Source of the DNA: Microbacterium sp. 1.5R | Lineage (GTDB): Bacteria; Actinomycetota; Actinomycetes; Actinomycetales; Microbacteriaceae | DNA length: 64,000 bases | Direction of reading: 5' to 3' | Assembly: GCF_001889265.1 (NCBI RefSeq) | Contig: NZ_CP018151.1 | Coordinates: forward strand, 1,550,001-1,614,000 | Part shown: positions 48,279 to 62,227 of the stretch, piece by piece | Position numbering within the stretch: position 1 is the first letter of the stretch | How the letters are laid out: every line of letters starts with the position of its first letter | The notes under the pieces: model-generated | Told to the model about the DNA's origin: nothing | Seen by the model: only the letters and a program-made list of their open reading frames with translations | The model's database searches: none | Program-made: the position numbers and the translations under genes

Positions 48279-48351
48279 GGCCCCATCGTATAGCGGCCTA
48301 GTACGCTGCCCTCTCACGGCGGTAACGCGGGTTCGAATCCCGCTGGGGTCA
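48279..48351 (+). tRNA. tRNA-Glu (anticodon CUC), integration target of the island
   Basis: 73-nt cloverleaf: acceptor GGCCCCA with TGGGGTC (one G-U), anticodon loop CCTCTCA-type with CTC as anticodon, T loop TTCGAAT, discriminator A. CCA is not encoded. The last 14 bases (48338 onward) belong to a 16-bp sequence repeated at 57404-57419, so the present 3' end was supplied by the integrated element and the tRNA stays functional. Confidence 0.95.
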
Positions 48352-48353
48352 CA
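48338..48353. repeat. attL core (16 bp) at the tRNA-Glu 3' end
   Basis: TCCCGCTGGGGTCACA, identical to 57404-57419. It covers the 3' strand of the T stem, the acceptor stem, the discriminator and two more bases. Confidence 0.88.
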
Positions 48354-48380
48354 CAACACAATCTGGCGCTGGTCAGAATC

Positions 48381-48412
48381 AAGAAAACCCCCGGTTTACC
48401 GGGGGTTTTCTT
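48381..48412 (+). terminator. terminator downstream of tRNA-Glu, supplied by the island
   Basis: AAGAAAACCCCCGG and CCGGGGGTTTTCTT form a perfect 14-bp stem with a TTTA loop. It replaces the original terminator, now displaced to 57425 beyond attR. Confidence 0.85.
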
Positions 48413-48451
48413 CGTTTCCGGGCGGTTTCAACTCCGAATGTTGTCGCTTCA

Positions 48452-48475
48452 CGTGTAGCGACTCGTGTAGCGACT
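48452..48475 (+). repeat. tandem 12-bp repeats, candidate integrase arm-type sites (left)
   Basis: CGTGTAGCGACT occurs twice in direct succession (48452-48463, 48464-48475), about 100 bases inside attL. Nearly the same pair, GTATAGCGACT at 12-bp period, is found inside attR (57310-57332). Paired direct repeats on both arms are the expected layout for the N-terminal arm-binding domain of tyrosine integrases. Confidence 0.7.
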
Positions 48476-48515
48476 CGCTGCGTCCGCATCTTAGGTCCGG
48501 CCTAGACTGAGCCGC

Positions 48516-50018
48516 ATGTCGCCTGTGAAGCGCCGTTCTGACGGTACCGGAGGGGAGTGGAGCGAGCAGAAACCCGTTCGCCGCCGCGACCCCGAGACGG
48601 GGAAATGGGTGAAGACGGAAGAAACGCGCACTATCTGGAATGTGTCGCGCCGTATCCCTTGGATGCACCGTGATGACTCGGGCGTCGAACGCGAAGGCGT
48701 CAAGGTGCTCGTCGCTGAGGGCAGCACGCCGCGCATCGCCCATGCGAACTTGGAAAAGCGCATCGCGCGGTTCAAAGAGGTGAGAAACCCTGCGGCAGCG
48801 TTGAGGGAACAGCGGGCCACGGAGACGCTTAGCGAGTACTTCTGGGACACCTGGACCAAGTCGAAGCGGCACTTCGAGTACCGTCCAAACACGGCTCGCG
48901 GACACCTCACGCGGATGCGTCTGCACGTTCTGCCTGTTCTCGGAGACAAGCGCCTAGTGGACCTCAGCCGAGATGACGTCCGACGACTGTTCGAGAAGGT
49001 CATGCCCGAGAAGACCATCGAGAAGGGGAAGTCCAAGGGGCAGAAGTACGGCCCAGAACAGACACGGGATATCTGGAAGACCCTTCACATCGTCCTTCAG
49101 GACGCCGTCTACGACGGCAAGATACCCCGGAACCCCATGGATGACATTCGGGATACTGACAAGCCGAAGCGCGGCGCTGCGACCACGCTTCTCATCCCGG
49201 ACGGCATCGTCATTGACCTGACGAGAACGCTGCGTCGGCCGGAGTGGGAGGTTGAACAGGTTCGGTTCAACCTCGCCCTCCAGACAGGCATCCGAGGCGG
49301 TGAAGCGCTGGGCATCACCTGGGACCGCATCTCCGGAGTGACCGATGGCGATAGCCGCCAGCCGCGCCTAGTCATCTCACAACAACTTGCCCGAAGGGAC
49401 ATCAAGCACGGGCCAGGCTGCAAGTCAGGCAAGGACGGGCAGTGGGCGTGCGGCGTGCAGGCCCGTTACTGCCCGCGTCACGGCGCGCCGCCGACACCGC
49501 GCATCGAAATCGTCAAGTGGACGAAATCGAAGAGGGAACGCAGTCTGCCGCTCACCCGCCGCATGCGGGAGCTACTCCGCACTCAGTTCGAACGACAGCT
49601 TGAATGGAAGCGTAAGTACCCAGGGGAGTGGGCGCAGCAAGAGGCGCTGCGAGATGACCTCTCAAAGCTTGTCTTCACGACCGAGAAGGGTAAGCCGTTC
49701 CGTCCGCAGAGTGATGGGAAGCGGTGGCACGAGCTGCTGGCTGCGGCGGGTCATGCGGATTTCGATGGCTCGGCACACAAGACCCGCCACCTCGCCGTCA
49801 GCGCACTCGCTCTGCAAGGCGTGAGCCTCGAACTTATCGGTGAGATTGTCGGTCACTCGAACGTTGAAATCACGCGCATCTACCGACACATCCAGCAGTC
49901 CGACATCGAGCGCCATCTTGAAGCGCTCGATGACCACTACGAAGCCGTCGAGGCCGCGAGGGAAGCCGCACGGGAAGAATGGGTGAGCGAGCAGCTCTGG
50001 GGTCCACGAGCCGGATAA
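48516..50018 (+). CDS. int: tyrosine recombinase/integrase
   Basis: 500 residues; TAGACT lies 7 bases before the ATG. An AP2-like arm-binding N-terminus, a core-binding helical domain (LSEYFWDTWTKSKRHFEYRP), and the catalytic domain with all expected residues: Arg in LQTGIRGGEALGITW, Lys in VKWTKSKRERSLPL, HxxRH in HKTRHLAVSAL, His in IVGHSN, Tyr nucleophile in ITRIYRHI. An insertion with GCKSGKDGQWAC and RYCPRHG (three Cys plus His) looks like a small zinc-binding module. Catalyses integration at tRNA-Glu. No excisionase is recognised. Confidence 0.95.
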   Translation: MSPVKRRSDGTGGEWSEQKPVRRRDPETGKWVKTEETRTIWNVSRRIPWMHRDDSGVEREGVKVLVAEGSTPRIAHANLEKRIARFKEVRNPAAALREQRATETLSEYFWDTWTKSKRHFEYRPNTARGHLTRMRLHVLPVLGDKRLVDLSRDDVRRLFEKVMPEKTIEKGKSKGQKYGPEQTRDIWKTLHIVLQDAVYDGKIPRNPMDDIRDTDKPKRGAATTLLIPDGIVIDLTRTLRRPEWEVEQVRFNLALQTGIRGGEALGITWDRISGVTDGDSRQPRLVISQQLARRDIKHGPGCKSGKDGQWACGVQARYCPRHGAPPTPRIEIVKWTKSKRERSLPLTRRMRELLRTQFERQLEWKRKYPGEWAQQEALRDDLSKLVFTTEKGKPFRPQSDGKRWHELLAAAGHADFDGSAHKTRHLAVSALALQGVSLELIGEIVGHSNVEITRIYRHIQQSDIERHLEALDDHYEAVEAAREAAREEWVSEQLWGPRAG

Positions 50019-50078
50019 CGGAGCGCGCTGTCCCCGTCTCGTTCCGATAGGTCGGGGCGGGACCCTATGTTGACCCGT

Positions 50079-51569
50079 ATGGTGCGTTTGGGCGAGAACA
50101 TGGGGCGAAGCATGGCGAGGATGAATCTGGCTGAAAGTGGTCGCTGGAGCGGCGAGTGGTGGGTCTCTGGCGAGGACAAGCGCCACCAAGGCACGTTGAC
50201 GTTCAGCCCGACTGACGGGCCGGTCCTCGTGCTGGTGCAAGGCTGGGAGTACCGCACGTATGCCGAGATTCTTCCTGGTCTCAGCGCCCAGCAGACAACA
50301 ACCCGAGACTGGCCAGTCGTATACGGCCTCGCCGGGGGAGTCCGCTTCACTCTCCGGAACGTTGCCCTAGTGTCTGGCGAGCCACACTCGGGCGACAAGC
50401 TCGGAGAGATGACATACCGAGCCGAAGTCGCTCTCGTCGGAGAGTATGTGTCCGAGGAAGCAGCGGGTTACGTTTCGCGCGCGCGCTTTGAGGTCGAGAA
50501 CTTGACGCAGTTCGCCTCGTTCAGCGGTATCGCTTCCAACTGGCTCTTGGACGACAACGACCGTCCGACCGGCGGCGGTAGCGTGAGCCTCGACCTGGTT
50601 CCACTTGCTGAGTTCCAGACGCGCGAGGGTGTTACCAGAATCCACCGTTGGTATGACCTGCCGTCGGCGAAAGCAACTAGACGCAGCTTCACCGGCCAAC
50701 TTGCGGAGACGGTGTACCTCGACATCACGCCAGACTCTCCCGTCGCCCTCGGGTACGTGTTCGCATTGGCAACGAAGCTTTGCCAGCTCGTATCCTTGGC
50801 ATCGTTGGACGCCTGCGGCGTCATCTCGATTCAAGCCGAGGTTCCTCTCGTGGACACCGAGCTGCCCGAGGGACACCCACACGAGAGCAGTCCCGCAATC
50901 GTGGATGTACTCTTCCGCCCGGTCACGATTCCCAGGCCGGATGCCCTCGCCGTGCCAGTACACGACTATGTGTTTACCGCTGCACGAGTTGCGCCGGAAA
51001 TCTTCCTACCCGCTTGGTTCGACTTGGTGGCGGAGCAGGAACCGGCCGTCGGACTGTTGACCGATGTGTTCGCAGGTTCGACGAGCCGCATCGCCGACCG
51101 CGTGCTTGCTGCTGTCTCCGCAGCGGAATCCTTCCATCGCGGGACCAACCCTGAGCCGCCCATCTCGGATGAGGAGCACGAGAGGCTGTTGGCTATCGTC
51201 GAAGCCGCTGTTCCGGATGAGCACAAAGACTCTGTGGGGGCCAAGCTCTCTGACAATCGGCACACGTTGCGCCAGCGTCTTCGGGCACTATTCCGTGGAC
51301 TACCGGAAGAGCTTCAGAAGGCCTTGCGCATCAAGGAGTCGGTGTGGCTTGAAGAAGCAACGAGCGCGCGGAACAAGGTGGCGCATTCCGGAACGGCAGG
51401 AAGCGCCGAAATCGAAGCCCTTGATGCAGTCGCCGAAGTCACCGCGGTCATCGTTCTGCTGCACGTCCTGCGCGCCCTGGGCGTGTCCGACGCCGACTGC
51501 CTGACGCTGTTCCACGAGAACAAAAGGTTCCGTCGGGCGGCGCAGAGTGCGCGCAAACACCTCGTCTAA
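50079..51569 (+). CDS. ApeA-like HEPN-domain protein (candidate anti-phage RNase)
   Basis: About 496 residues from ATG 50079, chosen because TATGTT lies exactly 7 bases upstream; an ATG at 50067 is also in frame. The N-terminal two-thirds (GRWSGEWWVSGEDKRHQGTLTF and following beta-rich sequence, ASFSGIASNWLLDD) matches the ApeA N-terminal domain type. The C-terminal third is helical and ends with the HEPN ribonuclease motif R-x4-H in ARNKVAHSG (Arg at 51369, His at 51384). ApeA-type proteins cause abortive infection through RNA cleavage. This one stands alone with no partner gene in the same direction. Confidence 0.75.
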   Translation: MVRLGENMGRSMARMNLAESGRWSGEWWVSGEDKRHQGTLTFSPTDGPVLVLVQGWEYRTYAEILPGLSAQQTTTRDWPVVYGLAGGVRFTLRNVALVSGEPHSGDKLGEMTYRAEVALVGEYVSEEAAGYVSRARFEVENLTQFASFSGIASNWLLDDNDRPTGGGSVSLDLVPLAEFQTREGVTRIHRWYDLPSAKATRRSFTGQLAETVYLDITPDSPVALGYVFALATKLCQLVSLASLDACGVISIQAEVPLVDTELPEGHPHESSPAIVDVLFRPVTIPRPDALAVPVHDYVFTAARVAPEIFLPAWFDLVAEQEPAVGLLTDVFAGSTSRIADRVLAAVSAAESFHRGTNPEPPISDEEHERLLAIVEAAVPDEHKDSVGAKLSDNRHTLRQRLRALFRGLPEELQKALRIKESVWLEEATSARNKVAHSGTAGSAEIEALDAVAEVTAVIVLLHVLRALGVSDADCLTLFHENKRFRRAAQSARKHLV

Positions 51570-51702
51570 GCGGGCGCTGGTTAGAGTAGGAGCGATAGCC
51601 TGATGACGTAACGACGGACCCAATACTTGCAGCCGTAGTCCTCAGCGACATCGAGTCGGTAGACGAGCTGCGTGGGTTCGCAAGCCTCTCTCGTGATGAG
51701 CG

Positions 51703-52269
51703 CTAACGCGGGCTGACGCCTTCGAACATTCGGCGAAGTTCGTCGTGCGACAGGACGAGCGGCTCGTCTGGGCCGAGAACCGAGTCCTTCGCTCCGGGTA
51801 GCAGGGGTGCGTACAACCCTCTGGCGATACGCTTCAAAGCAGGACGATGCTCGACAAGCAACGCTTCTACGTGCTCGAAAGCGCGCTTCTGTATCGGCTC
51901 CGATTCATCTTCCGGTATTCCGCTTGGACGACCAATGCCGAACAGCCATTGGTCCAAGTCGCCCTTCAGTCCGCTCGCCAGGTTGTCTCCGAGCAGCATC
52001 GACTCCGAACGCGAGCCAGCCGCGAAGTAGGCAAGTGCATCTTCCTCCCGCCCGGGCACCCAGGTATCCGGAAGTCCGTGCATCTGGACGCCACCGGCAA
52101 CCACGATTCCTGCATCTGCAAGCTTGGCGCGCGCAATGTGCTCACGGGGAATCTTCACTTCGATGAACTCAAACCCTAGGACCAAAGCCGCTGTGGCATG
52201 ACCCGCCTCGTGTGCTGCGGCATGTGCGAGCCAAGCGTGCTTTCCACAGCTATCCGTCTTGAGGAACAT
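51703..52269 (-). CDS. stand-alone M41 (FtsH)-like metallopeptidase domain
   Basis: About 188 residues from ATG 52269 (TAAGTT 7 bases upstream); the open frame extends 15 codons more. Zinc motif AAAHEAGHATAALVLG (HExxH), and a later GLKGDLDQW that resembles the segment carrying the third, aspartate ligand of FtsH peptidases. FtsH's AAA ATPase domain and membrane anchor are missing, so it is a free protease domain or part of a complex. It is divergent from the DUF3846 gene. Biological role unknown; phage- or stress-response proteolysis is speculation. Confidence 0.7.
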   Translation of the reverse strand: MFLKTDSCGKHAWLAHAAAHEAGHATAALVLGFEFIEVKIPREHIARAKLADAGIVVAGGVQMHGLPDTWVPGREEDALAYFAAGSRSESMLLGDNLASGLKGDLDQWLFGIGRPSGIPEDESEPIQKRAFEHVEALLVEHRPALKRIARGLYAPLLPGAKDSVLGPDEPLVLSHDELRRMFEGVSPR

Positions 52270-52276
52270 GCGGCTC

Positions 52277-52305
52277 AACTTACCGTCTGAGGTCACGGCT
52301 ACGCT
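52277..52305. promoter_or_regulatory. divergent leaderless promoters of the M41-like and DUF3846 genes
   Basis: On the minus strand TAAGTT (52277-52282) lies 7 bases before ATG 52269; on the plus strand TACGCT (52300-52305) lies 7 bases before ATG 52313. The -10 boxes are only 17 bp apart, so the two promoters share or compete for one polymerase site. Confidence 0.6.
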
Positions 52306-52312
52306 GCCCCTC

Positions 52313-52687
52313 ATGACCGCCCAGACCCTCGTCCTCCGGCCCGCCAGCGACGCTCTGGAGGCCGTGGAGCTATCGTCCGACGCCGGAGGGGACGGGACAC
52401 ATCTTCAGGCGCTCTACGCGGCGCTGGACGTTCGACTCGTCGATGTCATCCGGCTCTCCGACGACATCGACGCGTGGCTTGACGACGAGGGCCGCGTGAA
52501 CGGTTCCGAGCCGAACAGTCTGGCGACGGCAGTATTTCGCGCGTTCGGGTGGCACCTCAACCACGGTGACGACACCCGAGGCGCGGTGCTGTTCGCCGGT
52601 CATGACGGTGAAGGCGGCATGTGCTCGCTCAGCGCCCGTCAGGATGCCATCCTGCGCGACGCTTTCGCCCAGGCGCTCCGTATGTGA
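52313..52687 (+). CDS. DUF3846 domain protein
   Basis: 124 residues from ATG 52313. The pattern LQALYAALDVRLVDVIRLSDDIDAWLDDEGRVNG, shown here across two lines as LQALYAALDVRLVDVIRL and DIDAWLDDEGRVNG, followed by PNSLATAVFRAFG and VLFAGHDGEGGMCSLS, is that of DUF3846, a small family frequent in actinophages and conjugative elements. Function unknown. Its presence supports a phage or element origin of the island. Confidence 0.75.
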   Translation: MTAQTLVLRPASDALEAVELSSDAGGDGTHLQALYAALDVRLVDVIRLSDDIDAWLDDEGRVNGSEPNSLATAVFRAFGWHLNHGDDTRGAVLFAGHDGEGGMCSLSARQDAILRDAFAQALRM

Positions 52688-52791
52688 GCGGACTGCTCGC
52701 CGAGGTCGTGCATGCGACCCTCTGAGCGCTGCGCCTCGACACCCGAGCGGGGCGACCTGGCGGTCGAGAAGTCTGACGGTATCTTCGGGTC

Positions 52792-53841
52792 ATGGGAACA
52801 CCTGGCCCCGCAGCGAAGCGCCACCACTACGTCCCGCAGTTTCACCTGCGTGGCTTCGCTGACGGCGAGACCATCACAACTGTCGAGCTGCCTGGGGACC
52901 GTTCCTACAATCAGCCGGTGCGGAAGGCAGCCGCCGAGAACCACCTGTACTCGCTGCCTGGTCACCCCGACGGTGCGGATGTGTTCGAGAAGGCGCTCTC
53001 GCAACTCGAAGGCGAAGTCGCGGGTATCTTCGCGGATATCGCCTCAGGCACGTGGCCGCTCGATGAGGAATCGCGCGGCAGCCTTGCGTACTACGTTGCT
53101 CTTCAGATGGCCCGTGGGCCGGAACAGCGGCGGAACTCGGAGAATCTCGCGAGGCAGGCCACCCGCATGGAAATCGGGTACGGGGGCCGCGCTGGGGTGA
53201 AGGGGTGGGCCAAGATAAATCTGGGCCTCGACGTGGACGACGAAACGGCCGCGAGGCTGTGGGACGAAGGGATGCGCCCTGAAGGCCCGCGCATCAAGAT
53301 TTCAACAGCCGCGCACATCGAGCAGACGCTCGAAATCGCCGAGACGCTGTTCAAGTACATGAGTGGTCGCCCCTGGTCTCTGGTCCGCTTCGACCAGCGG
53401 TCGCTCATCCTCTCGGATGTGCCTGTCGGACTGGTGCGCCAGCCGGATGATGAGGACTCGTGGATGGGCGTCGGTGTGATGACAGCGTGGGGAATCACCT
53501 TTCCGCTGACGCGCAAACTTGGGCTTCTCATGAACGACCCCAACCTGATGATGGACAACGACATCCCGGTGGAGAAGGTGAGGGCCGGGGAGTTCGACAT
53601 TGCGCAGGCCGGAACGACCGCGATGGAGCGCATTTTCAACGAGCACACGGCCGTTAGCGCCAGCCTGAGGCTGTTTCACCACCCAGAGGATGCGCGCTTC
53701 GTGCCGAGCGGTCTGCCGGACCCTTCGCCGGTTACGATGTCGCTCCAGGGCACGCCGAAGGAATACACAGGCGAGCCATACATCCTGCCGCACATCCCGA
53801 AGCGCAACGTGATTGACGCTAGCTCGGGTGAGGAAGACTGA
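52792..53841 (+). CDS. DUF4238 domain protein
   Basis: 349 residues; TATCTT lies exactly 6 bases before the ATG. The N-terminus has the family signature AKRHHYVPQFHLRGFADG, followed by AENHLYSLPGHPDGADVFEKAL (in part) and a helical middle. A later VRFDQRSLILSDVPVGLV and ITFPLTRKLGLLMND are also family-typical. DUF4238 proteins occur widely as single genes on mobile elements; no activity is established. The conserved HHYVP resembles a metal- or nuclease-site motif, but that is only an impression. It converges, 9 bases apart, with the helical protein gene. Confidence 0.8.
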   Translation: MGTPGPAAKRHHYVPQFHLRGFADGETITTVELPGDRSYNQPVRKAAAENHLYSLPGHPDGADVFEKALSQLEGEVAGIFADIASGTWPLDEESRGSLAYYVALQMARGPEQRRNSENLARQATRMEIGYGGRAGVKGWAKINLGLDVDDETAARLWDEGMRPEGPRIKISTAAHIEQTLEIAETLFKYMSGRPWSLVRFDQRSLILSDVPVGLVRQPDDEDSWMGVGVMTAWGITFPLTRKLGLLMNDPNLMMDNDIPVEKVRAGEFDIAQAGTTAMERIFNEHTAVSASLRLFHHPEDARFVPSGLPDPSPVTMSLQGTPKEYTGEPYILPHIPKRNVIDASSGEED

Positions 53842-53850
53842 CTCACCGCG

Positions 53851-54699
53851 TCACGCGTTGGTGGGCTGGAGGCTCCGTTCGAACGCTTCAACGGCATCGT
53901 CGCACACACGATTCACGGTCTGCGAGAACTGGAGGAGGGTGACGTGCTCTAGGTGCGCATCCGATTCTGGAACCCTCGATGTCGCCAGATGCCGCAGCAT
54001 CATGAACGAGAAGTGGGAAAGGTCGCTGAGGAACTTCCAGGTGATGAACTCAACACTCTCCGAGCCATACTCCGCCTGCACTGGTGTGCTCGTGAACGTC
54101 TTCTTTAGAGCTTGGGATGCGTCGAGACCCACCGCCTCCGCGAGCTGCCGAAAATGCTCCTCAGACTCGCGCTTCTGCTCTTCCATGTGCGCGGTGAGCT
54201 TCTCTGAGTCCCCGGCGGCTTCCGGCACTCCGGATACCGCGACACCCAGCAGCCGGTTGTTCTCCGTGTAGAAGACGTTCTCACTGACGAGAGTGCGGAA
54301 GATGCGCGTCAGCCGTTCCGGGCGGCCCTCTGGAGACTGCAACCACAGGAGCGCGGCGGTGTCTTCCAACGCCGCGCGCATCAGCGGATACATGACCGTG
54401 CTGTCGATGAAGAACTCGCCGGGCCTCGTCGTGAAGACGAGGCGACGTAGGGCGCGGAGCATGCGGGCAGCGTTCCGCGCACGTTCCTGCATGTACCGCG
54501 TGACCGCCAGCGACTTCTCGCCGACCGTGACTGCCGCATTGTCCGCCACGAGACGGGAATCGGAAGAGGGCGCACTGTCGGCAAGAGCCTGAAGCCGTTC
54601 GGCTTTCTCGCCCCACGCCCCGCAGACTGCCCACAACTCCTCAGCCGTCTCAGCTTGTGAGATGTGCGCGTTCATCGACAGCGCCGCTTCATCGCTCAT
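53851..54699 (-). CDS. hypothetical alpha-helical protein
   Basis: 282 residues, almost entirely helical by composition. No family recognised with confidence. Central segment FFIDSTVMYPLMRAALEDTA then ALLWLQSPEGRPERLTRIFR has the R-x3-E-x6-W pattern of some HEPN-like proteins of unknown function (DUF5677-like), an impression only. No R-x4-6-H ribonuclease motif is evident. The start codon overlaps the last codons of the decayed methyltransferase frame (ATGA), so the two were once one operon. Confidence 0.65.
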   Translation of the reverse strand: MSDEAALSMNAHISQAETAEELWAVCGAWGEKAERLQALADSAPSSDSRLVADNAAVTVGEKSLAVTRYMQERARNAARMLRALRRLVFTTRPGEFFIDSTVMYPLMRAALEDTAALLWLQSPEGRPERLTRIFRTLVSENVFYTENNRLLGVAVSGVPEAAGDSEKLTAHMEEQKRESEEHFRQLAEAVGLDASQALKKTFTSTPVQAEYGSESVEFITWKFLSDLSHFSFMMLRHLATSRVPESDAHLEHVTLLQFSQTVNRVCDDAVEAFERSLQPTNA

Positions 54700-55945
54700 G
54701 CCATCGATGCTACTGGGGGCAATAGTGTCGAGTAGTGGCAGAACCTGATGACCTCGTAGACCCGACTGGCGCGCTCAACCGACGCAACCTCGACTATCTG
54801 CGAAGCGCTTTCGACCGAGCGAGCGATGCGACGCGACTTCCTGCGTTCGATTGGGAATCCCAGTGGTTCGCTGGCCAATACGCCTGCGGCGGTGAACTCG
54901 CCCCCGGCTACCCGGCAGACGAGGCGACCCACCTCGACTGGAGGCCTACTTCCGGGAGGGCTGAGCTTCAACAGCTCCGACTGCGGAATCTCCAGCTCGG
55001 CTGCTTTCGCGGGGGACATGGAGAAGTACTTGTTGTTCCCGGTGACCATGCCCAAGGTCGTATCGCCCCAAGTTTCGAGGGGCCTGAAGTCGCCGCTGGC
55101 CAGCAGCCCGCTGTAGACGTTCAGTGCGTCAGCCGAGAGTAGCGAAGGTGTCCACTTCTCGGACGGGTCCGACGGCGTCCAGGTTGTCGCAGAGAGCGTC
55201 TCCGACAGGGCTGCCGCGTTCTGTGCCTGGTAGATGGATGCGTGCTTCGCGCTACCCGTTTCGTAGCCATCGGCCAGCAGAAGGACGACTTCTTCCTGCA
55301 CCTCCGGGAACACGCGTTCTGTGAACATGACGAGGTCTACGTGAGCGAAGCGGTCGAACAGGAACCGTCGAACCTCGGCGGCGTAGTTCACACTGAGCAG
55401 CTCGGCCGGAACAACGAGGGCGAGTCGTCCGCCCTTGCGCAACATCAGCGCCGAATGAACCGTGAACGCGGCCCATGACGAAGCGAGGCCGCTCATGTTC
55501 ACGCCCGCCTGGAGCGCTGCCGCGCGGCTACGAGTTCGAGCTTCGCCGGAGAAGTCCTGGAACCGGATGTAGGGAGGATTGCCAATGACCGCCGTATATT
55601 TCGGCTCGGGTTCCACCAGGAAGAAGTCGCTCGTGATGATGTTCGGGTCGCCGCCCGCAGCGCGCACGAGACGGTCGGCTTCGGCCGCGCTGGCATCGTG
55701 AATCTCGACGCCATCGACGCGAGGAGGCACCGCGAAACCGCTGGTTGCTGCCTGAAGCTCCGTGAGACGGCGAACGGCTTGCGTCAGGAAGGCCGCTTCA
55801 CCGCAGGAGGGTTCGAGGACGAGGTCGTCCGCTGTTCGGACCGCCCAGTTCGTTGTGAACTCTGCGATTGCATCGGGCGTGAAGAACGCACCGCCGCCTT
55901 GCGGAGCGTCGCTGTGTCGGGGACGACGGCAAGGTTCGGACGCAT
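54696..55945 (-). pseudogene. N6-adenine DNA methyltransferase, frameshifted and 3'-truncated
   Basis: From ATG 55945 the frame reads MRPNLAVVPDTATLRK, the usual N-terminus of this actinobacterial methylase group, then one G appears missing at about 55897-55898 and the protein continues in the next frame as GGAFFTPDAIAEFTTNWAVR. SAM motif LEPSCGEAAFL and catalytic NPPY (VIGNPPYIRFQDF) are intact. Similarity ends at LLKLSPPGSR; the last ~85 residues do not look like the expected target-recognition domain. No cognate endonuclease is present. Either a decaying gene, a sequencing error at the G run, or less likely programmed frameshifting. Confidence 0.75.
54735..54957 (+). pseudogene. possible 5' remnant of a gene converging on the methyltransferase
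   Basis: A GTG at 54735 with TAGTGT exactly 6 bases upstream opens a frame reading AEPDDLVDPTGALNRRNLDY and on through FDWESQWFAGQYACGG. It has protein-like composition for about 70 codons and then runs antisense into the methyltransferase at about 54957, precisely where the methyltransferase protein stops resembling its family. A deletion that removed the 3' parts of two converging genes would give this picture. The lost partner could have been a restriction enzyme, but nothing shows that. Confidence 0.35.
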
Positions 55946-56022
55946 GTTCCCATTCTGGAGGTAGCCACCGACTCTGATGACCAACGACGCGCACGCAGGA
56001 AGCGCTACGGCATCATGATGAC

Positions 56023-57279
56023 ATGCACTTCGACTCTGTCTCGCCGACCCAAGACGCGATGTGCCTGGTGCACATTGGGGACGTTCACTTGCTTCAGCGC
56101 GTGTCGCCGTTCGCAGAGGACGGCGAATGCACGATATGCACGACAGATGACCTAGACCCGAGTGGTCAAGTGGTGAACCTGGAGCGCCTGGCTCGCGTTG
56201 TGGAGGAAGTAGCTCAGGAGAGCTATGACCACGAGGGCTGGATTTCCGATGGCGCGCAGATTCTGGAGCCGCTCACCACGGAGGAAGTGGTCATGGCACT
56301 TCTCGAAGACGCTATCGAGCCGGAAGCGCTCGACCTTGCCGTCGCGCTCACCGCCTCCCTCATCAACGAAGAACTCGACTGGTTCGAGCCGTTCGGCATG
56401 GATAGGGAGGACGGAATCGAGATTGAGTGGGACTTTTTCGAGCAGCGAGTAAAGCACGAGACGCGCCTTCTGCTCCGACCTCGGGATGGCGGTCGCGCGG
56501 CGTCAGCAGCAGAGAAGAACTACGCATTCATTGAGTCCTTGCTGTTTCTCTCGGAGGAGCGCGCCGGACTGATTAGAGAGCTTCCACGAGGAACGAAGTT
56601 GTATCGGGCGCGGTCCGAGCGCGACGCAATCGAGTTCGAGCGCACTGCGCGGGAGCGTCCGGCGCGAGAGCTTGGCCCAGCGCCGAGCGAGCGTGCGAGC
56701 GCGGGGCGCATGAACGCGCAGGGCGTGCCGATGTTCTATGTGGCGCTCGATGCAGAGACAGCATGCGCGGAGGTCGCGTCGCACAGTCCGTACGACGAAG
56801 CCGTCGTCGGGCGCTTCATCGTGCAACAGAAGCTGCGGGTGCTGGACCTCACGACGGTTCCGGAGCCACGCAGCATGTTCGACGAAACGCCTCCGGATGA
56901 CATCGATGAGCGTCTGAACTCGTTGAGCGTCTACCGCGACCGCATCACGAGGCCCGTTATTCTTGACGGTAGTCACCCGGTGGACTACGCGCCCACCCAG
57001 GTGATTACGGACGCTTTCCGCTACTGGCCGGAGCAGCCGCTTGACGGCATCATGTATCCCTCGCGTGTGCGAGACGGTGGCAAGAACCTTGTCTTGTTCT
57101 ACGGCGACCGTATGTGGTTCGAGTCACCTGAGGAGAAGTCTTCACGATTCGAAGGCTTCATTCGGCTGACCGACCACAACCGGAAGACATCGCTGTTTCA
57201 CATCGACCCGAAGACCGTTCGCAGATACCGGGTGAAGCGAGACATCAGCGTCCAGAGGGCTTGGCCCTACGACGGGTGA
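56023..57279 (+). CDS. RES-domain protein with a HEPN/RES-type N-terminal domain
   Basis: 418 residues. N-terminal region (about 1-170) has a short CTIC pair and helical sequence typical of the HEPN/RES N-terminal domain. The RES domain follows: Arg in KLYRARSERD, GPAPSERASAGRMNAQGVPMFY (in part), Glu in ETACAEVASH, and Ser in MYPSRVRDGGKNLVLF. RES proteins of toxin-antitoxin systems degrade NAD+ by phosphorolysis or hydrolysis; here no Xre/MbcA-type antitoxin is adjacent, so a solitary NAD-consuming effector is inferred. No clear ribosome site precedes the ATG. Confidence 0.82.
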   Translation: MHFDSVSPTQDAMCLVHIGDVHLLQRVSPFAEDGECTICTTDDLDPSGQVVNLERLARVVEEVAQESYDHEGWISDGAQILEPLTTEEVVMALLEDAIEPEALDLAVALTASLINEELDWFEPFGMDREDGIEIEWDFFEQRVKHETRLLLRPRDGGRAASAAEKNYAFIESLLFLSEERAGLIRELPRGTKLYRARSERDAIEFERTARERPARELGPAPSERASAGRMNAQGVPMFYVALDAETACAEVASHSPYDEAVVGRFIVQQKLRVLDLTTVPEPRSMFDETPPDDIDERLNSLSVYRDRITRPVILDGSHPVDYAPTQVITDAFRYWPEQPLDGIMYPSRVRDGGKNLVLFYGDRMWFESPEEKSSRFEGFIRLTDHNRKTSLFHIDPKTVRRYRVKRDISVQRAWPYDG

Positions 57280-57309
57280 GGGGCCGCAGCAGACGCTCAC
57301 ACGCACTCG

Positions 57310-57332
57310 GTATAGCGACTCGTATAGCGACT
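57310..57332 (+). repeat. tandem 11-bp repeats, candidate integrase arm-type sites (right)
   Basis: GTATAGCGACT at 57310-57320 and 57322-57332, 12-bp period, one base different from the left-end pair (GTGTAGCGACT) and in the same orientation, about 75 bases inside attR. Confidence 0.68.
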
Positions 57333-57371
57333 AACTGAGGTCCGTAGCTCAGAACCGGGCACGATAGTTGT

Positions 57372-57397
57372 CGTCGCGGGGATAAAACCCCACGACG
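57372..57397. repeat. inverted repeat beside attR
   Basis: CGTCGCGGGG (57372-57381) and CCCCACGACG (57388-57397) with an ATAAAA loop, one mismatch in ten, ending 6 bases before the attR core. Could be the terminator of the RES gene or a recombination accessory site. Confidence 0.5.
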
Positions 57398-57403
57398 GTG
57401 ACC

Positions 57404-57419
57404 TCCCGCTGGGGTCACA
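57404..57419. repeat. attR core (16 bp)
   Basis: TCCCGCTGGGGTCACA, identical to the attL core at 48338-48353; here it is the left-over 3' fragment of the original tRNA-Glu. Confidence 0.88.
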
Positions 57420-60975: not shown

Positions 60976-61092
60976 CCCGATTCCGTTCGGTGTCTCTCAC
61001 CCAGGAAGTGTCGGTCGACGCCCCATCGTCTCAGATCGGTGCCGGCGGCATCCGCAAGCGTCTTCGACTCCGCTACCATTGCTGAGGCGAGA

Positions 61093-61209
61093 GGGAGTAT
61101 CCCGCAAGCGCATCCACCGTCATCACGAGCACCGACATCGCTGCTCCGGTCGTGCGACGCACTCTGTGCGTGGGAGAGACTTTCGGCGTTTTTCCGACCC
61201 TCCCGAAAG
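61093..61209 (+). promoter_or_regulatory. structured terC leader, possible yybP-ykoY-like (Mn2+) riboswitch
   Basis: Elements: GGGAGTATCCC (61093-61103), CCGTCATCACGAGC (about 61118-61131), a CGCAC/GTGCG hairpin (61159-61171), GGAGAGACTTTCGG (61173-61186), and CCGAAAG (61203-61209) that pairs perfectly with CTTTCGG (61180-61186) next to the ribosome site. The GGGAGTA and GAGAGACTTT sequences recall the manganese-sensing yybP-ykoY class, which often precedes terC genes. Assignment is from memory of motifs, not from a model search. Confidence 0.5.
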
Positions 61210-61222
61210 GTGCTGTACGCCC

Positions 61223-62227
61223 TTGGAAATCCCTGTCTGGTTCGAGATCACCTCGATGATCGTCCTCACGATCATCCTGATCGGCGACCTGCTTCTGATC
61301 CGACTTCGTCCCCACATCCCCTCGACCAAGGAGTCGACCCTGTGGGTGGTGTTCTACGTCGGACTCGCGCTGCTCTTCGCGGTTCTTCTCGGAAACGTCG
61401 CAGGCTGGCGAAACGCCGGCGACTTCATCACCGGCTGGGCGCTCGAATACAGCCTCTCGATCGACAACCTCTTCGTCTTCGTGCTGATCATGGCGCAGTT
61501 CGCGGTGCCGCGACGCTTGCAGCAGCAGGTGCTGATGGTCGGCATCATCATCGCCCTCGTCCTCCGCGGAGCGTTCATCCTCGTCGGCGTCACGATCGTC
61601 GAGCACTTCTCGCCGATCTTCTACATCTTCGGTGCCTTCCTCATCTACACCGCGATCAAGCAGGCGATGCCCGAGGGCGAGCACGAAGACGATGTGAAGA
61701 AGGAGAACTTCATCGTGCGCCTGCTGCGGCGCCGCATCGACATCAGCGAGGAGTACGACGGCTCGAAGCTGCGCACGACCGTCGACGGCAAGCGCATGTG
61801 GACGCCGATGGTCATCGTGTTCATCACGATCGGCGTCACCGACCTGATCTTCGCGATCGACTCGATCCCGGCCATCTTCGAGATCACCACCAACGGGTTC
61901 CTCGTCTTCGCCGCGAACATCTTCGCGCTCATGGGCCTGCGCCAGCTCTACTTCCTGCTCGGCGATCTGCTCGATCGTCTGCGCTACCTCCACTACGGGA
62001 TCGCGGTCATCCTCGGATTCATCGGCATCAAGCTGATCCTTCATGCGCTTCACGAGAACGAGCTGCCGTTCATCAACGGCGGTCAGCATGTCGAGTGGGT
62101 TCCCGACATCGACAACATGGTGTCGCTGGGCGTCATCGTCGTGGCGATGACCGTGGCCACCGTCGCCAGCCTCATCGCCTCGTCTCGGGAGAAGCGGGCG
62201 CAGCGGGTCAGCCCGACGGTCGAGTGA
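61223..62227 (+). CDS. TerC family integral membrane protein
   Basis: 334 residues from a TTG at 61223; GAAAGG lies 12 bases upstream, and the longer open frame crosses the structured leader. About eight membrane segments; conserved TerC acidic motifs LEYSLSIDNLFVFVLI and VTDLIFAIDSIPAIFEI, a cytoplasmic loop rich in charges (MPEGEHEDDVKKENF), and NIFALMGLRQLYFLL. TerC/Alx proteins export Mn2+ or load exported enzymes with it, in line with a possible manganese riboswitch upstream. Confidence 0.92.
   Translation: MEIPVWFEITSMIVLTIILIGDLLLIRLRPHIPSTKESTLWVVFYVGLALLFAVLLGNVAGWRNAGDFITGWALEYSLSIDNLFVFVLIMAQFAVPRRLQQQVLMVGIIIALVLRGAFILVGVTIVEHFSPIFYIFGAFLIYTAIKQAMPEGEHEDDVKKENFIVRLLRRRIDISEEYDGSKLRTTVDGKRMWTPMVIVFITIGVTDLIFAIDSIPAIFEITTNGFLVFAANIFALMGLRQLYFLLGDLLDRLRYLHYGIAVILGFIGIKLILHALHENELPFINGGQHVEWVPDIDNMVSLGVIVVAMTVATVASLIASSREKRAQRVSPTVE

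Follow-up and report, generated by a model that had tools for sequence, protein, structure and literature searches.

Integrase-bearing islands at tRNA genes that have attachment (att) repeats and carry defence genes represent a known general kind of element. The phage and satellite defence hotspots share with the island described here site-specific insertion, att repeats and defence cargo, including DUF4238 proteins, and in the accessible part of their description one DUF4238 protein of a P2 hotspot gives strong T7 resistance (PMC9122126). Proteins with an N-terminal zinc ribbon and the HEPN/RES-NTD1 domain were described from sequence in 2013; in the available sections of that source the N-terminal domain (PF18870) occurs in fusion with HEPN or with RES, and RES is predicted to be a ribonuclease (PMC3710099). 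As far as the accessible text of a 2024 paper goes, the known immunity targeting nicotinamide adenine dinucleotide (NAD) is exclusively that of TIR and SIR2, and no RES toxin-antitoxin system is implicated in bacterial immunity (PMC11535050). The window, namely the whole 64,000-nucleotide stretch analysed (1,550,001-1,614,000 of the one 3.62-Mb contig that makes up the genome of Microbacterium sp. 1.5R), contains a 9.07-kb tyrosine-integrase island inserted by site-specific recombination at the 3' end of a tRNA-Glu gene; its cargo probably consists largely of stand-alone phage-defence genes, including one for a putative NAD+-cleaving RES effector. The main interest of the island is the RES protein, a candidate for an immune NADase that is neither TIR nor SIR2.

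Between the two att cores there are eight large open reading frames (ORFs), an integrase gene and seven others, as counted in an earlier note made from the letters of this DNA, although the methyltransferase ORF is not intact. The principal features are the following:

48279..48352, + strand: tRNA-Glu (CTC; ARAGORN), the integration target, whose 3' end is attL
48338..48353, + strand: 16-bp att core, attL, exact match, spanning the tRNA-Glu 3' end
48453..48480, + strand: tandem 12-bp direct repeats GTGTAGCGACTC at the left end, putative arm-type integrase sites (repeat search)
48516..50018, + strand: tyrosine integrase, 500 amino acids (Phage_int_SAM_3 and Phage_integrase; Pfam 4.2e-18, PHROG integrase 5.3e-39)
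50067..51569, + strand: ApeA-like protein (ApeA_NTD1 and HEPN_Apea; PADLOC PDC-S58), whose start may lie downstream of 50067
52792..53841, + strand: DUF4238 protein (Pfam PF14022, 1.4e-37)
53851..54699, - strand: ORF6, a 282-residue all-helical protein, in the position of the restriction endonuclease (REase) of related restriction-modification (RM) loci
54696..55994, - strand: broken type II N6-adenine DNA methyltransferase of Eco57I type (PADLOC 2.7e-132)
56023..57279, + strand: zinc-ribbon, HEPN/RES-NTD1 and RES protein, putative NAD+-cleaving effector
57310..57337, + strand: tandem direct repeats GTATAGCGACTC at the right end, putative arm-type integrase sites (repeat search)
57404..57419, + strand: 16-bp att core, attR, exact match

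The att core, TCCCGCTGGGGTCACA, restores the 3' end of tRNA-Glu on integration and occurs in the window in two exact copies, at the places where the earlier note had put them; the only further core-like site within three mismatches is a single one with 3 mismatches. Among the three tRNA genes of the window (the transfer-messenger RNA being left out), only that for Glu has 14-mers of its 3' end repeated elsewhere on the + strand. Inside each end of the island the GTRTAGCGACTC repeat stands in tandem, the right copy being 86% identical to the left one, and from their sequence these repeats probably serve the integrase as arm-type sites. The attR core and positions 57398-57403 form a GTGACC-N9-GGTCAC dyad (57398-57418; read by eye).

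The left flank with the tRNA gene was searched in 295 genomes of the genus and matched in all of them, a result that the neighbouring gene of the query alone could explain; the empty site was read in the loci of the 29 best relatives, each reaching about 1.5 kb past the tRNA gene. In eight of these (L015, L016, L020, L023, L024, L027, L031, and L032; flank identity 74-77%) tRNA-Glu is joined directly to the right flank of the window, from 57404 into the MFS and ArsR genes, with a gap in the right-flank alignment of L015 and L016. In 20 of the remaining 21 loci the match to the right flank covers its first part only, mostly 55-67 bp that include the terminator; L012 has no right-flank match. 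A stretch of 60 bp beginning with the core is 98% identical in L004 and L006, which belong to the three closest relatives (left flank 88%). Within about 1.5 kb of the tRNA gene the core is single in 27 loci, double in L017, and absent in L029, while over 14-17 kb, followed at six of the 29 sites, it is single in five and double at the remaining one, that of L017. Because of the empty-site alleles and the core counts, the island is an insertion with the predicted single-core alternative, and the integrated element proposed in the earlier note is borne out. In L017 (G149; the same site is L052) a second core with tRNA 3' sequence and terminator lies 1,452 bp downstream (2335 and 3787) and is read as the remains of a further insertion at this tRNA-Glu.

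The looser codon use that had been noticed inside the island is reflected in the G+C content at third codon positions, which is 0.72-0.79 in seven genes and 0.65 in the gene of an HExxH protein in comparison to 0.838 +/- 0.053 in 45 flanking genes (lowest 0.68). Total G+C content ranges from 0.59 to 0.66 in the island and from 0.66 to 0.73 in the nearest flanks, yet it is also 0.61-0.62 outside, at 61000-62000. The integrase carries SAM-like and catalytic domains and is 24-27% identical to actinophage integrases among the 12 best matches listed; no relative at E<=1e-60 was found in the other 294 genomes of the genus. Among the eight large ORFs neither relaxase, TraB/FtsK or type IV secretion genes (Pfam, NCBIfam) nor replication, packaging, terminase, capsid, virion or regulator genes (Pfam, PHROGs) were recognised, in agreement with the earlier note, according to which replication and transfer genes are missing; ORF6 matches MobH of NCBIfam at 0.027, with 13 bits against a 200-bit cut-off, and functional PHROG matches are those of the integrase and the DNA methyltransferase only. 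Since relaxase, replication, and virion genes were not recognised, the element is, judging by its genes, an integrase-only island or a reduced one, and because no replication or transfer genes were recognised, it would depend on another element for any movement other than excision by its integrase. The whole gene combination was seen nowhere else among the loci fetched. Relatives sharing the same genes at unrelated places, which the earlier note had named as an argument against the island, do exist for single genes, as ApeA and RES (E<=1e-20) are each found in 10 of 295 genomes, that is, in 9 of 294 besides that of the window; however, they do not refute it, since the integrase was not found in the other 294 at E<=1e-60 and the combination was not encountered again among the loci fetched.

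The RES protein has the same architecture as the HEPN/RES-NTD1 proteins with an N-terminal zinc ribbon, as far as these are covered by the available sections of PMC3710099, but it is encoded in a delimited mobile island and its model points to a NAD-cleaving fold. PF18870 precedes the RES domain at 26.5 bits, just under the cut-off of 27.4, and no HEPN family of Pfam was matched at E<=1. The earlier note had assigned two products to families linked to abortive infection; the ApeA-like protein keeps this place with a match to PDC-S58 at 2e-25, whereas the designation of the RES product as a HEPN protein was not supported. The RES active-site residues are invariant among the aligned relatives and would map onto those of NatT; in its predicted fold the protein looks like a NAD+-cleaving RES enzyme. 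It is similar to the RES-Xre toxins MbcT, NatT, and ParT in the modelled RES fold and the invariant active-site residues but has an extra N-terminal half of about 180 residues (zinc ribbon and NTD1), and no Xre antitoxin gene adjoins it, the broken methyltransferase gene being its large-ORF neighbour on one side and attR lying on the other.

The ApeA-like protein scores 76.2 bits for ApeA_NTD1 and 62.7 bits for HEPN_Apea (Pfam cut-offs 25.5 and 24.4). The catalytic motif of HEPN domains is RX4H, and its residues R435 and H440 are kept in 10 of 10 aligned sequences. The protein is thus like ApeA (PDC-S58), as presented in the accessible part of PMC3710099, in combining ApeA_NTD1 with HEPN_Apea and RX4H; in contrast, it is 26-29% identical to the nine ApeA relatives aligned, and its gene has no recognised Cas13 and no intact RM operon beside it. 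The DUF4238 protein reaches 130 bits with PF14022, whose cut-off is 27.

In the preferred and rather probable reading, much of the cargo would be stand-alone phage-defence genes, namely those for the ApeA HEPN ribonuclease, the DUF4238 protein, and the zinc-ribbon/NTD1/RES protein. The N-terminal half of the latter would hold it inactive or sense infection; once triggered, the protein would cleave NAD+ and the infected cell would stop before phage release. The island looks like a defence island of known kind, partly decayed, yet a new example; of the "undescribed defence island" of the earlier note, the defence-type cargo (ApeA, DUF4238) remains, while the category is already known and the RM part is broken.

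The genomic neighbourhoods of the RES family bear on this reading. In the genus, a known defence-type or RM gene is near RES at six of the nine other loci, and some of these loci again have ApeA or the same methyltransferase:

RES locus G050: PD-T7-1
RES locus G059: Avs2 and AbiJ
RES locus G149: PDC-S37/Hhe
RES locus G253: ApeA with methyltransferase and REase-like genes
RES locus G284: ApeA, AIPR, and PIN behind a serine recombinase
RES locus G116: truncated methyltransferase and integrase domain
RES locus G269: TnsB/TniQ-like genes and a leucine-repeat protein
RES locus G194: leucine-repeat protein

No PADLOC family matched the proteins checked singly at G209 and G194. Beyond the genus, RES has SIR2-like and PIN genes near it in Agreia (L109) and a YobI-like NTPase gene in Cryobacterium (L113). 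In Arthrobacter (L110, 5672-12463) RES adjoins a methyltransferase and ResIII pair, type III-like RM, with a tyrosine integrase nearby. In G116 an integrase catalytic domain, 36% identical to that of the window, lies after RES and a shortened copy of the same methyltransferase (L114, 9554-10246); the gene order is that which the window island would show as a circle, and L114 yielded no tRNA. A RES family without an adjoining antitoxin gene, located at several loci amid Avs2, PD-T7-1, Hhe/PDC-S37, ApeA, and RM, makes the role of RES enzymes directly testable, and the island offers a compact, delimited gene set for tests in Microbacterium.

A more ambitious proposal, which is possible but doubtful, is that the zinc-ribbon/NTD1/RES protein would be an antitoxin-free immune sensor-effector that acts on its own, killing or arresting infected cells via RES cleavage of NAD+, and not via TIR or SIR2, and that the ApeA ribonuclease and RES would form a recurrent two-effector cassette (RNA cleavage and NAD loss) moved by unrelated integrases. 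Both genes are present in 3 of 295 genomes of the genus (P 0.003). They are also paired directly, with 18 bp between them, in M. esteraromaticum (L115, 6504-9245) and M. oxydans (L059, 7782-10523).

Several results weigh against the defence reading and its extension. Foldseek alone gave no match for the RES protein at E<=0.001, nor did a sequence-profile search among solved structures; in the PADLOC run on the cargo, advised by the earlier note, the ApeA-like protein was assigned to PDC-S58 and the methyltransferase to type II, and no model matched the RES protein. At three of the nine RES loci (G209, G194, and G269) no identified defence gene was seen among the proteins checked singly. In the control regions none of 82 proteins had a PADLOC match at 1e-10, versus 100 matched families among 92 RES neighbours, but one protein may be matched by more than one family, and the six control regions are homologous metabolic ones, in effect a single region. 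RES and ApeA are 4.5 kb apart in the window, ApeA is present at only two of the 56 additional RES loci (53 from genomes, 3 viral), L112 (the G253 record) and L115, and their co-localisation may be mere island clustering; the pairs of L059 and L115 may be one recent cassette because their ApeA proteins are 93% identical, so that the pair counts about once. An excisionase was not recognised among the large ORFs, the small ones being outside the screen, and no role in defence is known for the HExxH, DUF3846, and ORF6 products.

The state of the methyltransferase introduces the alternatives. Its intact relatives compared have 558 residues; in the window their first 17 residues sit in another frame and those from 334 on are absent. 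The remainder is 90% identical over 315 residues to the copy of M. oxydans BEL163 (L059/L112), whose Eco57I-type type II RM pair it resembles, but the C-terminal part and the REase are absent. In G253 the REase-like gene directly follows the methyltransferase, and genes 88% and 70% identical do likewise in G120 and G121; the G253 gene has no Pfam or PADLOC family match, the label REase resting on its position beside the methyltransferase and on the present reading. In the window ORF6 stands in its place. A type II RM system comprises an intact methyltransferase with its REase, a pair that the window does not hold, and by its sequence the window methyltransferase is a relic of such a pair. In G116 the methyltransferase is also shortened, its first 382 residues aligning at 92%, and no REase match was found. 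A protein encoded on a 22.9-kb contig (P0045) is identical to residues of the window copy, and the contig perhaps derives from another assembly of the same strain.

The island could accordingly be seen as the decaying remnant of a mobile element with mixed accessory genes, in which defence would be incidental and most cargo drifting. The methyltransferase broken at both ends, the lost REase, and an integrase that is the sole mobility gene recognised and has no relative at 1e-60 in the 294 other genomes of the genus favour this view, which is nevertheless unlikely: seven of the eight large ORFs are open, two of them with invariant catalytic residues, the integrase has its 500 residues with both domains present, and defence genes abound around RES homologues.

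PrrC guards its type I system, and by analogy the RES protein could guard a neighbouring RM system and fire upon RM loss or block. RES adjoins the same methyltransferase in the window and in G116, is one gene apart from it in G253, and adjoins the Arthrobacter pair; the co-occurrence of RES and methyltransferase has a P of 0.039, or of 0.0003 for the subfamily of at least 72% identity, a cut chosen post hoc. However, RES is still open in the window and in G116 and thus persists without RM, since the methyltransferase is truncated and no REase was found in either, and the same methyltransferase (1e-60) is missing from seven of the nine other RES genomes of the genus, so that a guard role is improbable. 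Equally improbable is a phage satellite or cis-mobilised element, packaged or conjugated by a helper and with cargo mainly shielding helper or element from competitors: defence genes including DUF4238 occupy phage and satellite hotspots in the accessible part of PMC9122126 and the integrase resembles those of actinophages, but the island, unlike these hotspots, has no recognised phage or satellite genes (terminase, capsid, replication or regulator) among its large ORFs and no known helper, no viral contig with its integrase was found, and its 9 kb matched no plasmid.

The minor cargo includes two divergent neighbours:

51703..52314, - strand: HExxH (HEAGH) metallopeptidase-like protein, likely start 52269 (188 residues)
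52313..52687, + strand: DUF3846 protein (Pfam 1.1e-10; ORF listed from 52259)

The HExxH protein matches Peptidase_M50B of Pfam weakly (0.046, below the cut-off). The ORF6 family has 43 proteins among the matches listed, that of the window included, and its named records are from Microbacterium and Agromyces. The ORF6 model is all-helical, with a predicted local distance difference test score of 92.7, and a fold search gave no convincing match. In L049 (4126-10548) an ORF6 homologue lies between a transposase gene and the gene of a 1,667-residue protein that matches NACHT weakly, a setting which suggests that ORF6 is itself an island gene.

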